64,000 bases of DNA from Halobacteriovorax marinus (GCA_002163155.1 MAAO01000006.1:558001-622000); one strand, 5' to 3'. Counted from the stretch's first letter, positions 1,778 through 9,391 are shown. Translations and numbers: made by a program. Notes: generated by a model not told the origin, from the letters alone.

Positions 1778-2803
1778 ATGAATAGAGAATTAAATACCTT
1801 ATGGGAAGATCATTGGAAGAGTTCTACTTTAGAGGCGGTACAAAAGCGCTATCAGTTAAAAGAAATTTTTCCTAATCTTGAGAATCCTAAATGCTTATTA
1901 AAGTATTTCATTCTGGCACATATTTATAATCTAAATACTTCTGAATTATTAAAAATTGAAATCACTCTCTTAGATTGTTTTAAAAGTGGAGAGTTTAACA
2001 AGAATGAGCTCTATATAGTTTTCTTCTTTAAAAATTTCTTCTCAGTCACATTCTTAGAAATGTTAGATGAGTCAATGAGTCCAGAACTTTTAGAGTCTTG
2101 GAACTTTGCAGAACACGGTTCAAACTTTAGTGAATTCTCTAAAAAGCACTTTGATTCTCTAAAGTTGAGTTTGCAAAAGCTTTCTGGCGTTAAACTCATA
2201 CTTTTTCTTAGAAAAGATCGTTCTTATAAGGGACGTATGGTCCTTATTGATCAGAAGGGAAAAATTATTTCAGATGCAGTAGGACCTTGGTCACTTCCCG
2301 CTCTGTGCAAAGGAAGAGAGAATAAAGCTTTCTTCATGCCTAATGGACAAACACCGACAGGTTTATATTCTATTAACTCAGTTATGCCTAAGGCGGACAA
2401 TACAGAACTCTTTGGTGAGTATAGGCGTTTGAAATTAGATTTTAAATCTAGGGAAAATATCGAAGAGATTCTTAGTGACTCTTTACTCGAGCACCCTTTT
2501 TGGAAAAGTGCAGTGATTGCTAGTGATCTGGGGCGCTCTCTTTTACGAATTCACGGTACAGGGCTTAAAAATAAAAAATTCTATAAAAAGTACCATCCCT
2601 TTGTAACAACTTCTGGTTGTGTCTCAATGAGAGAAACTTCTAAGTTTAATGATCAAAGACTTCTGCTTAATCAATTAATGAAGTCTATGCAGTTAGAGGA
2701 AACTTTTCTTAACGAAGAGGAGATTAATGGGCATTTATGTATCATTGAACTCAACGACGAAAAGCGTGAAGTTCAATTAGCAGACATTGAAAACTTAGAT
2801 TAA
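1778..2803 (+). CDS. YkuD-like L,D-transpeptidase-family protein without obvious signal peptide
   Basis: The C-terminal half (about residues 140-300) carries the YkuD signature: IHGTG with His259 and, 20 residues on, TTSGCVSM with Cys281 as probable nucleophile; the strand NGQTPTGLYSI before it also fits. The N-terminal 130 residues are helical and unrecognised. L,D-transpeptidases crosslink or edit peptidoglycan in the periplasm, yet no signal peptide or membrane segment is evident. I chose ATG 1778 over the in-frame ATG 1769 because GAGAGGA (1761-1767) is correctly spaced only from 1778. Its 3' end overlaps the convergent kinase gene by 4 nt. The function as transpeptidase is family inference; a carboxypeptidase or non-wall role is possible. 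Confidence 0.75.
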   Translation: MNRELNTLWEDHWKSSTLEAVQKRYQLKEIFPNLENPKCLLKYFILAHIYNLNTSELLKIEITLLDCFKSGEFNKNELYIVFFFKNFFSVTFLEMLDESMSPELLESWNFAEHGSNFSEFSKKHFDSLKLSLQKLSGVKLILFLRKDRSYKGRMVLIDQKGKIISDAVGPWSLPALCKGRENKAFFMPNGQTPTGLYSINSVMPKADNTELFGEYRRLKLDFKSRENIEEILSDSLLEHPFWKSAVIASDLGRSLLRIHGTGLKNKKFYKKYHPFVTTSGCVSMRETSKFNDQRLLLNQLMKSMQLEETFLNEEEINGHLCIIELNDEKREVQLADIENLD

Positions 2804-3753
2804 AAGTACTGTTGTTGATTTAAGTTTGTTTGAATTAAGAGAAGTTGATTTCTTAAATCTTGAACTTGAATTTCCCAGTAGTGATGTTCTGCAAAGTGAG
2901 GGAAGTGTAGCTTAAAGGCCGGATCATCCCATCTCTTAGAAATCCATGTACTAAAGTGGATAAATCTCAAAGTCCTAAGAATTTCTATTATTTTAATCTG
3001 CTCCATAGGAAATGGTCGCATAGAATCGTAAGCTTCTATAACAATGGCACGATCTTGTAATGAGTGTTGATCAATTCCAGGAACTGCAAGCCAGATATCT
3101 TGCACCTCTGGACCCATCAGCATGTCATCAAAATCAATTAAGTGAAAAGAAGCGCTGTCTCTGCGAATGATATTTCCTAAGTGACAGTCTCCGTGAATTC
3201 TAATAAAGGACTCTTCCTTAAATAGAGGAGTTCCGATTTCACAAATTTCTTCCACAAGAGATTTGTAACTCCCTTCAAGATGACCGGGGATCACTTTACT
3301 ATCTAGGAGATATTGTAGATTTTGTTTTCCGTAAATATCAGGAGTGAGGTGGAGGCGATGTTCGGCCTTCTTACTTGCTCCTACCATATGAAGTCTAGCT
3401 AATGTTCTTCCGAAAATTTCTAGATCTTCTATCTGCATTTCATCAGGTGCTCTTCCGCCTTTTTTAGGAAAGATACAGTAAAAGAGTCCTGAAAGCTCAT
3501 CGGTGAAGATGGTCTCTCCATCAATCACCATGGGAGCAATAACAGGAATTTCATTTTCTAAAAGTTCTATGAGGAAATCGTGCTCGTCTTGAATTTGATT
3601 CTTAGTCCAGCGTCCTGGTCTGTAGAATTTTGTAATAAGAGAGTGCTCAGATGGGTTAGATGAATCACTATAAATTTCAACTTCATAAACTCTATTTTCC
3701 ATAGAGTTCATAACAAGAGAGCGGCCAGTTGTTTTAAATCCAAGCCTATCCAC
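2800..3753 (-). CDS. srkA: SrkA/YihE-like stress response kinase (APH fold), start probably further upstream
   Basis: The protein closely follows E. coli SrkA (YihE/RdoA), a eukaryotic-like Ser/Thr kinase that counteracts stress-induced death: NSMENRVYEVE in the N-lobe, KFYRPGRWT holding the ATP lysine, the catalytic loop IHGDCHLGNI, and the metal-binding segment LIDFDDMLMGPEVQDIW. The first standard start is GTG 3753, but homology to the SrkA N-terminus (FFYELSPEKILSCV versus the E. coli HPDTIM region) continues upstream in the same frame. An in-frame ATT at 3828 has GGAG seven bases before it and would give 342 residues. Cytoplasmic. It is convergent with the YkuD-like gene. Confidence 0.88.
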   Translation of the reverse strand: MDRLGFKTTGRSLVMNSMENRVYEVEIYSDSSNPSEHSLITKFYRPGRWTKNQIQDEHDFLIELLENEIPVIAPMVIDGETIFTDELSGLFYCIFPKKGGRAPDEMQIEDLEIFGRTLARLHMVGASKKAEHRLHLTPDIYGKQNLQYLLDSKVIPGHLEGSYKSLVEEICEIGTPLFKEESFIRIHGDCHLGNIIRRDSASFHLIDFDDMLMGPEVQDIWLAVPGIDQHSLQDRAIVIEAYDSMRPFPMEQIKIIEILRTLRFIHFSTWISKRWDDPAFKLHFPHFAEHHYWEIQVQDLRNQLLLIQTNLNQQQYF

Positions 3754-3924: not shown

Positions 3925-3947
3925 AATAAGGATGCTACCAGCTATTT

Positions 3948-3956
3948 GATATAATT
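3948..3956 (+). promoter_or_regulatory. Extended -10 promoter of the SelO-like operon
   Basis: TGATATAAT is a perfect TATAAT with the TGn extension, 24 nt before the ATG at 3980. No good -35 is seen 17 bases upstream, as is common for extended -10 promoters. Confidence 0.5.
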
Positions 3957-3979
3957 TAGTCAACAAAAATGAGTGGATT

Positions 3980-5812
3980 ATGACAAAACTTAGAAAGACA
4001 AAAAAACAAGTAACACCCCAACAGAACTATAAGAGATTTAGTTCGGTGGATGGTCGACACCCTTTACAAAAAGCAGTTCCTGACTCAGCGGTTAATTATT
4101 CTGTACGAACTAGGAAAGGTGGTAAAGTTGCTTTCTTTAATTTTGATTTAGCTAAAGAGATGGGTCTTATTCAAAAGAATCATCCCAATGAATTAACTCC
4201 TGAGCTTGAACAAGAAATATTAAATACATTCTCTATTGTTATCATCAATGAATATGACATTGAAAATGAAATAAAGTTTCCTAAGAAGGAAATTAGAAAA
4301 CACCAGTATATGGCGACAAGATATCTCCAGTTACAGCACCCAAACAAACAGGGAAAAACCTCTGGTGATGGAAGAAGTATCTGGAATGGTAGTATTTCCC
4401 ACAGAGGTAAGAGATGGGATATCTCAAGCTCTGGAACAGGTGCCACATGTTTAAGTCCCGCTACTCATCTACATGGAAAACATTGGAAAACAGGGGATCC
4501 TACCATTTCTTATGGTTGTGGTTATTCTGAAATTGATGAAGGAATGGGGACACTATTCTTTAGTGAAATCTTTAATAGAAATCACTTAGAAACTGAAAGA
4601 GTCTTAGGGATTATCGAGTTCTCAAATGGTATCGCCATTAATATTAGAGCACAGCAAAATCTTATTAGACCTTCTCATATGTTTAACTATTTAAAACAAG
4701 GTGATTTAGAAAACCTTGATTTAATGGTTGAGTATTATATAGACAGAGAAATTGAAAATGGAAATTTTCAAGATGCACCAAAATCAAAAAAGAAGAGATT
4801 AGATTACTTCTTAGAAAAACAAACTGAAATTTTTGCCAAGATGTCTGCCAAACTTGAGGACGAATATATTTTCTGTTGGCTCGACTGGGACGGGGATAAT
4901 ATCCTCATGAATGGTGGAATCATTGATTATGGATCCATTCGTCAATTTGGTCTTTTTCATAGTGAGTACCGCTATGATGATGTAGACCGTTATTCAACCA
5001 ATATAATAGAACAAAAAAATAAGGCCAGATATACGGTTCAGACCTTTGCTCAGCTTGTTGATTATATAAAGACGGGCGAGAGGAAATCTCTTAAAGACTT
5101 CTCTAAGTCTAAAGCTGTTAAGCAATTTGATTCTTGTTTTATGGAAAGTAAATTCACAAATTTATTAGAGAAGACAGGTTTTACTGAAGAGCACATTGAG
5201 TTTTTATCTAAGAAGCATGCAAAGCTCGTTGTTGAGTATCAAAAAGTCTTTTCTTATTTTGAAAGAACAAAATCAAAAGAAGGTCTTCATGAAGTTGCCG
5301 ATGGAATTAATTGGTCAGCTATTTTCTGTATGAGAGATATTCTAAGAGAGCTTCCACAATTGTTTCTCGTGAGAGGTGAGAATTTATCTTATGATGAGTT
5401 TATTAATGTCATCAAATCATCCTACGCAACTAAAGAGGACCTTGAGCTAGGCTCTCATAGAAAGAAGATGATCAATGAATTCCAGTCTATCTATTGGAAA
5501 ATGACAAAACTAATAGCAGCTCATAAGAAAGTGGAAGTAAACAAAGTACTACTAGAGCTTACTATGCGTACGAGTGTTATCAATAAATATGACAGAGTTA
5601 CTGGGGATTCTATTTCTACTATCGTAGATAAAGTTCTCAAACATAGACCTCGCGTCAAACCTATTCAGCTTTATTCTCTCTTACAAGAGTTTTGTGACTA
5701 TCAAAATTTTGACCCGGCCAAGTGTATTAATGTTGACAGGCCTACCAAAGTACAGTCAAAATTCATGAAGAACATGTTACAAATCGTTAGAGATTATAGA
5801 GAGGGGCTGTGA
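3980..5812 (+). CDS. Divergent SelO/YdiU-like pseudokinase
   Basis: A 610-residue protein with landmarks of the SelO (YdiU) protein-AMPylating pseudokinase family: GDGRS (129-133), the glycine-rich segment SGTGAT (151-156) aligning with KGAGLT of E. coli YdiU, FFSE with Glu196, GDNILM with Asn307, and IDYG with Asp316, followed by DVDRYS matching the GRYS element. The ATP-contacting lysine of KGAG is Ser151 here, and the C-terminal Cys/Sec tail of SelO is absent. The C-terminal 250 residues are helical and unassigned. It has no signal peptide, so it is cytoplasmic. It starts a four-gene operon and overlaps the S51 peptidase start by 4 nt. Nucleotidyl transfer activity is uncertain given the lysine loss. 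Confidence 0.72.
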   Translation: MTKLRKTKKQVTPQQNYKRFSSVDGRHPLQKAVPDSAVNYSVRTRKGGKVAFFNFDLAKEMGLIQKNHPNELTPELEQEILNTFSIVIINEYDIENEIKFPKKEIRKHQYMATRYLQLQHPNKQGKTSGDGRSIWNGSISHRGKRWDISSSGTGATCLSPATHLHGKHWKTGDPTISYGCGYSEIDEGMGTLFFSEIFNRNHLETERVLGIIEFSNGIAINIRAQQNLIRPSHMFNYLKQGDLENLDLMVEYYIDREIENGNFQDAPKSKKKRLDYFLEKQTEIFAKMSAKLEDEYIFCWLDWDGDNILMNGGIIDYGSIRQFGLFHSEYRYDDVDRYSTNIIEQKNKARYTVQTFAQLVDYIKTGERKSLKDFSKSKAVKQFDSCFMESKFTNLLEKTGFTEEHIEFLSKKHAKLVVEYQKVFSYFERTKSKEGLHEVADGINWSAIFCMRDILRELPQLFLVRGENLSYDEFINVIKSSYATKEDLELGSHRKKMINEFQSIYWKMTKLIAAHKKVEVNKVLLELTMRTSVINKYDRVTGDSISTIVDKVLKHRPRVKPIQLYSLLQEFCDYQNFDPAKCINVDRPTKVQSKFMKNMLQIVRDYREGL

Positions 5813-6546
5813 AGTTAGTCTTTTACTCCGGTGGAGATTTTGAAGAAAATTATGAGTTAGATAAACTCACTCTTTCTCTGTGCGATACCAACACTCCTAA
5901 AATGACTTTTATCCCTTCGTGTTCTTATGAATCTGAATATGATTTCAAGCATTTTGTAGATCAGTTCAGTAGACATGGTGTCTCTCAATTTCTACATTTT
6001 CCCATTGATATTCCTTTTGATACAACTCTTTTAAAGGAAGCATTCAAAAGTGACGTCATTCATCTGGATGGGGGAAATACTTTTTACTTTTTAAAATATT
6101 TAAGAAGTAGTGGCATGATGCCTCTTCTCAAAGAATTTGTAGCGAAAGGTGGAATTCTTACAGGCCTTAGTGCTGGTGGGATTATAATGACTCCTCAAAT
6201 TTCTACTGCAGGTTTTCCGGAATTTGATAGAGATGACAATGATGTGAGGCTTCATAACTTAAAAGGTATGAATCTTGTACGTTTTGAATTCTTTCCTCAT
6301 TATAAAAACTCAAAGAGATATGACCGAGACTTAAGGGCCCATTCTCTTACGTTAGATCATCCTCTATATGGTCTACCTGATGGAAGTGGTATTATTATAG
6401 AGGATCACTCTGTTAAGTTTCATGGACCTTGTTATGGTTTCTTTAAGGGGAAGAAGATGATTATTAATTCAAGATTACCTCTGAAGAAGTATTCATCCTT
6501 TGAAAATGAAGTAGGGACAATAGTAAATTGTGATACTATAAATTAA
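5809..6546 (+). CDS. Peptidase S51 (dipeptidase E / cyanophycinase-like)
   Basis: 245 residues with the S51 core: LDGGNTFYF (about 86-94) and the nucleophile elbow GLSAGG with Ser121. Family members are cytoplasmic serine peptidases, either PepE-like enzymes cleaving Asp-X dipeptides or cyanophycinases. The length of about 230-250 and lack of a signal peptide favour the PepE side. Start is GTG 5809, overlapping the SelO-like stop codon by 4 nt, which implies translational coupling. A TTG-initiated glycosyltransferase follows after 28 nt. The pairing suggests a shared peptide or protein substrate, but this is inference. Confidence 0.82.
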   Translation: MKLVFYSGGDFEENYELDKLTLSLCDTNTPKMTFIPSCSYESEYDFKHFVDQFSRHGVSQFLHFPIDIPFDTTLLKEAFKSDVIHLDGGNTFYFLKYLRSSGMMPLLKEFVAKGGILTGLSAGGIIMTPQISTAGFPEFDRDDNDVRLHNLKGMNLVRFEFFPHYKNSKRYDRDLRAHSLTLDHPLYGLPDGSGIIIEDHSVKFHGPCYGFFKGKKMIINSRLPLKKYSSFENEVGTIVNCDTIN

Positions 6547-6574
6547 TAATACTTAAATTATAGGATATCCTTTT

Positions 6575-7564
6575 TTGAAAGTTCTCATAGTTACTCCCTA
6601 TAGAAATTTTCCCGGCGGAGTTGAAAAATACAACTCCCTAATCGAAGAGATCTTAGTTTCTGATGGATCCAGTGTTGAGTATTTAACCACTGATGATTAT
6701 CCCTTATCTCCAATCTTAAAATTTAAAAAGAAAGTCTTTGGTATGGCGGCGATCACTGCCAAGAGGTTTAAAAATATTGATTCCTCTAAGTATGATTTAA
6801 TTATTTGTAACGGAGAGTTCTCATTAGGAATTAAACACCCTAACGTCTTAAATATTTTCCATGGCTCTTTCTTAGGATTTAGAGATTTTTTAAAAAATGA
6901 ATTAAGTTTAAAACACTTTCTAAGTCTGACTTGGCAATCTGTTCTACAAGCTAGTGGAAGTACTAATAAGAAAGTTGTGACAGTTTCTAAATTCAACGCT
7001 ACCCAATTGGAAAAACAGGGTATCAAAGTGAAAGATATTTTATTAAATCCAGTCGATTTAGAAAAGTATACGCCAAAGGATTGCAAGCGAGCTGGAATCT
7101 TAAATGTTTCGACCTACAAATACTTTGGCAAAGGTTTTGACCTTCTAAAAAAACTCTCTTGTTTAAGAGACGATATTACCTGTGTCACTAATAAAAGACC
7201 TGATTTTAATTGTCGGTGGATTGAATCAGTAGGCGGAATGGAATTAGCTCCCATTTATAATGAACATAAAGTAGTCATAATTCCCAGTAGATATGAATCT
7301 GCTTCCCTTGTGGCCCTCGAGGCCATGGCATGTGGCGTTCCAATTGTGATGAATAGAGTAGGTTATGCTCTAGAAATTGAGAAAATTATTCCTGAATTTG
7401 TTCTCCCCATAGAGGACCTCTTGGATGCTAAGACCTATGATGAGAGAATTGAACTTATTATTTCCAATTACGATGAACTCTCAAAGAAGGCGAGAGATTA
7501 TGTCGAAGCACATCACTCGATGAAAACTTTTAAAACAAATTTCTTAAAAATCATAAAAGGATAA
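6575..7564 (+). CDS. Glycosyltransferase family 4 (GT-B fold)
   Basis: 329 residues. The N-terminus has the GT4 start (VLIVTPYRNFPGGVEKY) and the C-terminal domain the retaining-GT E-x7-E motif in RYESASLVALEAMACGVP. The middle (FHGSFLGF, NPVDLEKY) also fits. It should transfer a sugar from a nucleotide donor; acceptor unknown. Translation starts at TTG 6575, the only start that keeps the N-terminal strand. It is the third gene of the SelO-like/S51/GT4/S9 operon, with the next gene 3 nt away. It is not adjacent to polysaccharide genes, so a peptide, protein or small molecule acceptor should be considered. Confidence 0.82.
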   Translation: MKVLIVTPYRNFPGGVEKYNSLIEEILVSDGSSVEYLTTDDYPLSPILKFKKKVFGMAAITAKRFKNIDSSKYDLIICNGEFSLGIKHPNVLNIFHGSFLGFRDFLKNELSLKHFLSLTWQSVLQASGSTNKKVVTVSKFNATQLEKQGIKVKDILLNPVDLEKYTPKDCKRAGILNVSTYKYFGKGFDLLKKLSCLRDDITCVTNKRPDFNCRWIESVGGMELAPIYNEHKVVIIPSRYESASLVALEAMACGVPIVMNRVGYALEIEKIIPEFVLPIEDLLDAKTYDERIELIISNYDELSKKARDYVEAHHSMKTFKTNFLKIIKG

Positions 7565-7567
7565 AAA

Positions 7568-9391
7568 ATGAAAATTGATATTGAAAAATATTTGGACGCG
7601 TTTCCTTATACAAATTCTCATATTACAAGTGATGGTCGGATTATTTTCTTGAAAACTGTTGAGTCTAGTAAGTTTCTCTTTATGGGAAATATTAAAGATG
7701 ACTTAACAAAGAGTAGTCAGATTTGTGATATTGATTTTGCCGAGCAAAGTTATTGGTTAATAGAATTTGATGAAAGTACTAATACACTCTATTTTATTTC
7801 AGATACAGATAACCTTGAAGACTTTAATGTCTTCTCTCTAAATGTATATGGAAATCTTGTAGAGCAGCTGACTTATAATAAATACACACAAATGTACGAT
7901 ATTTGTTCTAAGAGAAAAATCTTATTCTATTCTGATCGCTTAAATCATTCTGAAACAGGTTATGACTCTAAAGCTTATATGCTTAACCTGAAAACGGGAG
8001 AGAGAAGAGAAATCTATAAGACCACTGGAGACTATAAGCTCTCTTGGTCGAGCGCCAAGGTGTCTCATGATGAAAGGTTTGTCATCGTTTCTGTCGATTA
8101 CCACTCTGAAAGAAAGAGAAATAACCTTTTAAAAATTAACCTCATAGACGGATCTTCAGAGCTTCTTTTAAAAACTGAAGATGAATGTTCTGGTGTTTAT
8201 GCTCCATACGAAGATTACTTTGAGGAAAATATTACGATTGTTAGTGATATTAGCGGAGTTGATAATTTATATAATTTGAATGTTTTTGATCTTTCGCTCA
8301 CTCAGGTGACCGATTTTACCATACCTTCTAAGAGTATAAGTCTTATTAAAAATGGAAAAGATGAGAGAACCTTTCTTGCGCTATTTAAAGACCTTCCAAA
8401 TGATCAAACTATTGCAAAAATAATAAAAGTAAACACTAAAGGCCATGATGTTATTACAGAAAAGAACTTCAGTGGGAATTATGAAGAAAAATGTGTCAAT
8501 GCTGGAATTTGGCTAATAAAGAATAATTTAGATTGTCCTTCAGTTTTTAAGAACTTCGATGAGAGACTAAATGAGTTAGGACCAGAAATACAACTCTATG
8601 TAGGAGATAAAAGCACCTTGAGTCAATGTACTTATGAATTCCTGGAATACGAATCATTTGACGGGGAAATTGTTCCGGCCTTTATCACTCTTCCAAAGGG
8701 TGAAATAAAGGGAGCGATAATTATTTCTTTCTATGGTGGAGATAACTTCTACTCAATAAGGAGTAATCTCTTTGCTGAATTAGGAATTGCTGTTCTTTCA
8801 CCGGCCGTGAGAGGAAGTCATGGATTTTCAAAAAAATGGCGAGATCATATTATTGGAGATCTAGGTGGAAAAGAAATTATTGATGTTATTTGGGGAGCAA
8901 AATACTTAGAATCTCACTATGGTCTTGCTCCTAAACAAATTGGAGTCGTAGGTGGAAGCCATGGTGGTTATGCCACTCTTAGGACATTAACTCTACCTCA
9001 TCCATACGAGGGTGTAGAGACTCGCTTCAATTTTGGGGCAGGAGTTTGCGAAGCAGGATTTGCAGACTTAGTAGACTTTTATAAAACTAGTAATATTCCA
9101 GATTGGCTCGTTCAAATGCTGGGACCATTCTGTGAAAAAAAGTACGGTGAGAGGTCTCCTCTAAACTACTTTGAAAATCTAGAGACTCCACTTCTTGTCA
9201 TTCATGGAACAAATGATAGACGTGTACACGCTTCGTCGATGGAAGGGTTTATTGAAAAATTAAAGAACTCTGAAAAAGAACATGTTCTTCTAATTAGCGA
9301 AGGGCAAGGACATCATACAAACGATAAATCTCAAGAAATAAAAGAGATTGAAACCACTTTGAATTTCCTTAAAAGTACTATTCTAAGCTAG
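7568..9391 (+). CDS. S9-family prolyl oligopeptidase / acylaminoacyl-peptidase-like serine peptidase
   Basis: 607 residues. The first 340 form repeated beta-strand units with SDT/SDR/SDI motifs typical of a beta-propeller gate. The C-terminal alpha/beta-hydrolase domain carries the nucleophile elbow GGSHGGY (Ser464), HGTNDRRV (Asp550) and a catalytic His at 582 or 583 in GQGHH. No signal peptide, so probably a cytoplasmic oligopeptidase. It is the last gene of the operon begun by the SelO-like protein, and its 3' end overlaps the convergent YbaN-like gene by 14 nt. Substrate is not defined; the propeller implies short peptides. Confidence 0.88.
   Translation: MKIDIEKYLDAFPYTNSHITSDGRIIFLKTVESSKFLFMGNIKDDLTKSSQICDIDFAEQSYWLIEFDESTNTLYFISDTDNLEDFNVFSLNVYGNLVEQLTYNKYTQMYDICSKRKILFYSDRLNHSETGYDSKAYMLNLKTGERREIYKTTGDYKLSWSSAKVSHDERFVIVSVDYHSERKRNNLLKINLIDGSSELLLKTEDECSGVYAPYEDYFEENITIVSDISGVDNLYNLNVFDLSLTQVTDFTIPSKSISLIKNGKDERTFLALFKDLPNDQTIAKIIKVNTKGHDVITEKNFSGNYEEKCVNAGIWLIKNNLDCPSVFKNFDERLNELGPEIQLYVGDKSTLSQCTYEFLEYESFDGEIVPAFITLPKGEIKGAIIISFYGGDNFYSIRSNLFAELGIAVLSPAVRGSHGFSKKWRDHIIGDLGGKEIIDVIWGAKYLESHYGLAPKQIGVVGGSHGGYATLRTLTLPHPYEGVETRFNFGAGVCEAGFADLVDFYKTSNIPDWLVQMLGPFCEKKYGERSPLNYFENLETPLLVIHGTNDRRVHASSMEGFIEKLKNSEKEHVLLISEGQGHHTNDKSQEIKEIETTLNFLKSTILS

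Follow-up and report, generated by a model that had tools for sequence, protein, structure and literature searches.

A family of SelO-like, kinase-fold proteins distributed across the phylum Bdellovibrionota formed a sister clade to SelO with an inverted catalytic signature, a clade undescribed in the literature searched, and the genes for these proteins were commonly followed by a gene encoding a peptidase E (PepE)-like serine peptidase of family S51, with which they form a conserved and, as predicted from the gene overlaps, translationally coupled two-gene unit. The pair was located in a 64,000-nucleotide stretch of the Halobacteriovorax marinus genome (GCA_002163155.1 MAAO01000006.1:558001-622000), the whole of which is called the window here. 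The features at the locus were as follows.

About 3946..3955, + strand: extended -10 promoter element TTGATATAAT, ahead of the SelO-like/S51 pair (from the sequence and a congener alignment)
3980..5812, + strand: gene 1 (core), SelO-like, lysine-less kinase-fold protein, 610 aa (hhalign, AF2, Foldseek, VIA-align, and residue table)
5809..6546, + strand: gene 2 (core), S51 (PepE-like) serine peptidase, 245 aa, GTG start (Pfam S51, 6e-28)
6575..7564, + strand: gene 3 (accessory, outside the conserved unit), GT4 glycosyltransferase, 329 aa, TTG start (Pfam Glyco_trans_1_4, 3e-11)
7568..9391, + strand: gene 4 (accessory), S9 prolyl-oligopeptidase-family protein, 607 aa (Pfam Peptidase_S9, 1e-36)

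The four co-directional ORFs lay as the initial annotation had described, with an overlap of 4 nt between genes 1 and 2 followed by gaps of 28 and 3 nt, and the extended -10 element that it had placed in front of gene 1 was likewise recovered. This element, TTGATATAAT, was invariant in all five aligned congeneric sequences (the window and four congeners), and its flanks diverged; it was unlisted in an automatic promoter scan of the window because that scan demands a -35 match as well. A four-codon frame (ATG AGT GGA TTA, stop TGA; window 3968-3982, +) ended on the gene 1 start through an ATGA overlap and was not conserved among congeners. The divergent neighbor (window 2800-3753, -) was annotated as an APH-fold kinase (Pfam APH) and adjoined the SelO-like/S51 pair in several genera; its listed start seemed to give too short a protein relative to the congeners (342 to 346 aa).

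Synteny was compared across Bdellovibrionota genomes. A gene for an S51 peptidase was next after gene 1 and on the same strand at 57 of the 60 loci with sequence beyond the gene 1 stop, and 47 of 64 measured junctions overlapped by exactly 4 nt. The genes flanking the pair varied between genome groups and the pair persisted; these neighbors (M15, PLD, sulfatase, FemAB-like, and desaturase genes) were too varied to be informative about a pathway. In other Bdellovibrionota families, the S51 gene was divergent from gene 1 (adjacent at loci L128 and L129 and two genes away at L126), downstream of it at L125, or in some cases unlinked. Among 369 genomes scored for strong matches, both genes were present in 116, the SelO-like gene alone in 93, and the S51 gene alone in 2 (Fisher's exact test, P = 3e-34, calculated with shared ancestry ignored). 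Bdellovibrio-type genomes carried a single gene 1 with no linked S51 ortholog, so gene 1 is able to work without gene 2. Because the two genes overlap in many species, the SelO-like protein and the S51 peptidase are suggested to act together. One genome without a SelO-like gene contained a canonical SelO gene and, about 600 nt downstream of it, an S51 gene of a different subtype (L107:1504-4232, +); the intervening sequence read as a reverse-strand gene, and this candidate for a second, independent link between SelO and S51 was judged to be probably a coincidence.

The same comparison did not uphold the four-gene system of the initial annotation, which had joined the SelO-like and S51 genes with those for the glycosyltransferase and the prolyl oligopeptidase. 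Both additional ORFs were assigned to their families (gene 3 to the Pfam Glyco_trans_1 group, 44 bits against a cutoff of 27, and gene 4 to the Pfam S9 catalytic domain, 126.9 bits against a cutoff of 22.6). A GT4 ortholog was found at the same place, after the S51 gene, in one of four congeners, and S9 occupied its place in the window genome alone, so the four-gene unit was rejected and the part of the arrangement that stood was the SelO-like/S51 pair. The unit was followed in the congeners by a FemAB-like gene on the opposite strand. Homologs of S9 with about 40% identity were found elsewhere in genomes G019 and G027; the relative in G003 was split into two overlapping ORFs (L139:491-2349, -), probably a decaying gene. 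The GT4 and S9 genes would be recent cargo on the same transcript. Of the substrates that the initial annotation had suggested for modification and hydrolysis, a peptide may apply, and a glycopeptide is less likely because the glycosyltransferase is not conserved.

The 610-aa protein encoded by gene 1 had no significant match in Pfam and a weak match to the NCBIfam YdiU model (4.5e-8, far under the model's own cutoff). Pfam PF02696 matched 8 of 47 relatives (best, 3.5e-9), among which the window protein was absent, and several genomic relatives exceeded the curated cutoff. Comparison of a profile of the gene 1 family (66 relatives) with a profile of true SelO (31 proteins) gave a probability of 98.7% and an E value of 4.3e-16 over 339 columns (hhalign). 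When the family profile was compared with the whole PDB, three SelO/YdiU sequences were the sole matches at E values up to 10, each of them individually weak (E, about 0.08). An AlphaFold2 model of the protein (pLDDT, 90.8; pTM, 0.90) gave nine significant Foldseek matches, all nine to SelO/YdiU (E, about 1e-12), and VIA-align placed the model on the SelO/YdiU protein adenylyltransferases (PF02696; PDB 6EAC, 6LNA, and 6K20) with Z scores of 26 to 27 over 433 to 461 residues, versus a Z score of 8 for the next fold. The SelO/YdiU-type fold that had been proposed for this protein was thereby confirmed over its full length, and a chance likeness was ruled out by the profile-profile match together with the fold comparison. 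Gene 1 thus encodes a homolog of SelO across the whole length, at an identity of 13 to 15% and with about 20 more residues between beta-3 and alpha-C than SelO has.

To compare active-site residues, 86 members of the gene 1 family and 31 SelO proteins were placed in one joint profile alignment, with the roles of K113, E136, R176, R183, N253, and D262 in SelO taken from published work (PMC8097203). At site 151, which aligns with the beta-3 lysine of SelO (Lys113, present in 31/31), family members contained Cys (58), Arg (17), Ser (8), or Ala, Gln, or Val (1 each). The window protein has Ser151, in agreement with the initial annotation, and lysine was found at this site in none of the 86 members. 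A congener protein 76% identical to that of the window carries Ala there, which argues that the side chain at site 151 is not catalytic. At site 191, the equivalent of the alpha-C glutamate (Glu136, 31/31 in SelO), the family had Thr (57), Ala (19), or Ser (10), and the window protein has Thr191. Glu196, which had been read as the retained salt-bridge glutamate, corresponds instead to SelO Glu141 of the SEAM motif, both in the joint alignment and in a separate one against a YdiU chain; both partners of the Lys-Glu salt bridge are thus missing. The second GDG motif differed as well: Asp125, an ATP-site residue of SelO (31/31), was replaced at site 180 by Cys (80), Ser (3), or Asn (3), and the window protein has Cys180. 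Since the equivalents of K113, E136, and Asp125 were all sought and found to be missing, the family should not be classed as canonical SelO.

Other parts of the SelO active site were invariant. GDGR, Arg132, Arg223 and Arg230 (SelO Arg176 and Arg183), and Asp306, Asn307, and Asp316 (SelO Asp252, Asn253, and Asp262) were present in 86 of 86 family members, which bears out the retention of GDGR, Asn307, and Asp316 noted earlier. Loss of the catalytic Asp of the kinase HRD motif is what makes SelO a "pseudokinase." At the position of that residue, five residues ahead of the metal-binding Asn, an Asp (D302) that the initial annotation had not mentioned was found in 85 of 86 members of the gene 1 family versus Val in 30 of 31 SelO proteins. 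Two further basic positions were conserved, namely, Lys167 (K or R in 85/86), within a segment that SelO lacks, and Lys239 (K or R in 86/86); on the basis of the alignment, either is perhaps a candidate basic substitute in a rebuilt pocket.

The gene 1 family was detected in 217 of 369 Bdellovibrionota genomes, and the observation is therefore more than a chance one. About two dozen of the genomes carrying it, mostly finished, belong to a genus taken to be Bdellovibrio. Phylogenetic analysis recovered the family as a single clade separate from SelO, in a tree that came from a short search and contained long branches. Site 151 had changed at least five times on this tree, never to Lys; Arg was typical of the Bdellovibrio-type branch, and Cys or Ser was found elsewhere. 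The family is paralogous to SelO, and many genomes hold a canonical SelO too. In the window genome, the canonical SelO (L001:1378-3237, -) was unusually diverged (230 bits, versus about 370 to 420 in congeners), with a long branch and inserts in its N-terminal half. Two exported-looking SelO-like proteins that retained the Lys grouped together on the tree. One was a divergent protein with an N-terminal signal-like segment (L140:2187-4532, +; Lys in VLKGIGQTP), whose 781-aa frame continued into a GTFDPPHITH nucleotidyltransferase-type domain identified by eye; fusion of an exported SelO to a nucleotidyltransferase would be an unusual arrangement. The other (L141:1904-3736, -; 610 aa) had an altered catalytic loop (HGSPTAGNRTT).

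A scan of genome contigs with short peptides of the window gene 1 protein recovered close relatives alone. No relative turned up in viral contigs or phages, and the plasmid matches were all canonical SelO from haloarchaea, in which Lys, Asp125, and Glu136 were present. In the literature searched, made up of non-subscription papers, Bdellovibrio was never joined with SelO, YdiU, or UPF0061 or with "peptidase S51."

The gene 2 product was assigned to Pfam S51 at 98.4 bits (cutoff, 23.9). Its model (pLDDT, 88.6) was closest in fold to the aspartyl dipeptidase peptidase E (PDB 1FY2; Z, 24.9 over 208 residues), with cyanophycinase at a Z score of about 22; Lmo0363 (3L4E) is a further S51 protein of this fold. 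The nucleophile Ser121 (GxSAG), His164, Asp140, and Asp142, which include the candidates for the Ser/His/Asp triad, were invariant in the alignment, so the peptidase is predicted to be active. Unlike peptidase E, gene 2 is coupled to a SelO-like gene, and its product lacked, in the alignments, the GETREQRI segment that follows the catalytic His in both 1fy2 and 7c9b; aspartyl specificity therefore cannot be assumed.

The explanation favored for gene 1, with a little less than even confidence, is an active Mg-nucleotide-dependent transferase with a remodeled pocket that works alongside the PepE-like peptidase. A live metal- and nucleotide-dependent transferase is favored because the Mg ligands, the phosphate arginines, GDGR, and the added Asp are strictly conserved across the phylum. 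The protein would most likely bind Mg-nucleotide via GDGR, Arg223/Arg230, Asn307, and Asp316 and would transfer part of the nucleotide to a protein or peptide. As in SelO, the group transferred would most likely be AMP/NMP, which is the first guess given the retention of the arginines that bind the gamma phosphate of flipped ATP. The triphosphate pocket may have been rebuilt with small, thiol, or Arg residues at sites 151, 191, and 180, perhaps with the basic Lys167 or Lys239, and D302 stands at the place of the HRD base. The peptidase may cut the substrate or product of gene 1, or gene 1 may regulate gene 2; action on the same target or control by gene 1 is suggested by the shared transcript and the coupled translation.

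The main rivals to such a transferase are a dead scaffold and a kinase. The combined loss of the Lys113, Glu136, and Asp125 equivalents is what a dead pseudoenzyme would also show, and an inactive SelO-fold protein, serving as a scaffold or nucleotide sensor that binds the S51 peptidase and controls it, would be consistent with translational coupling at most loci and with the finding of an S51 ortholog without gene 1 in only 2 of 118 genomes. Dead enzymes usually lose their Mg ligands, phosphate arginines, and HRD-type Asp, however, and here N307/D316, D306, both arginines, and GDGR were kept in every family member phylum-wide, and the HRD-type Asp in all but one; together with the Bdellovibrio-type genomes, in which gene 1 has no linked S51 gene to regulate, this makes a dead scaffold rather unlikely. 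A genuine phosphotransferase, with D302 as the base and ATP in the ordinary rather than the flipped orientation, is also improbable. In its favor, the catalytic loop (WLDWDGDN) reproduces the five-residue HRDxxxxN spacing from the Asp to the metal Asn, with Val at the Asp position in SelO, and WNK kinases function without the usual beta-3 lysine (PMC12599244), but the 86/86 retention of the arginines that serve the gamma-phosphate of flipped ATP favors the SelO orientation.

In the boldest alternative, gene 1 would activate a carboxylate by adenylation and attach an amino acid to a peptide or protein, from which the S51 peptidase would remove it, the two being writer and eraser. The models for this proposal are SidJ glutamylation and the cyanophycin synthetase/cyanophycinase pair: SidJ, a kinase-fold protein of Legionella, glutamylates via an acyl-adenylate and thus performs adenylyl chemistry, not phosphorylation (PMC8548325), and two members of S51, cyanophycinase and aspartyl dipeptidase, are close to gene 2 in fold. 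SidJ, unlike gene 1, retains the VAVK lysine (PMC12599244). No sequence feature ties the gene 1 protein to ligases, its match to AcsD, a siderophore synthetase (Z, 8), was at noise level, and the missing PepE GETREQRI segment means that no particular specificity can be assumed for the S51 peptidase; the writer/eraser pair is accordingly given a very low probability. Also rated as unlikely is a phylum-wide kinase-fold enzyme with moved catalytic residues (SelO Lys/Glu/Asp lost, HRD-type Asp present) that would carry out a non-SelO transfer on a peptide or protein, trimmed or reversed by the S51 peptidase. Other kinases, such as WNK and POMK, have lost or moved the beta-3 lysine and retained activity (PMC12599244); they offer a functional analogy only, as the fold of gene 1 is that of SelO.

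SelO is the case that established AMPylation by a "pseudokinase" through a flipped ATP. The gene 1 clade carries the reverse of the SelO substitutions, with the kinase Asp present and the Lys and Glu absent, and has kept the Mg and phosphate-arginine ligands phylum-wide; it therefore offers a natural experiment on which residues in the kinase fold determine how the nucleotide is oriented and what chemistry results. The coupling with S51 suggests a route to the substrate of gene 1, and the presence of gene 1 across the genus inferred to be that of the model predator Bdellovibrio would make deletion and testing feasible there.
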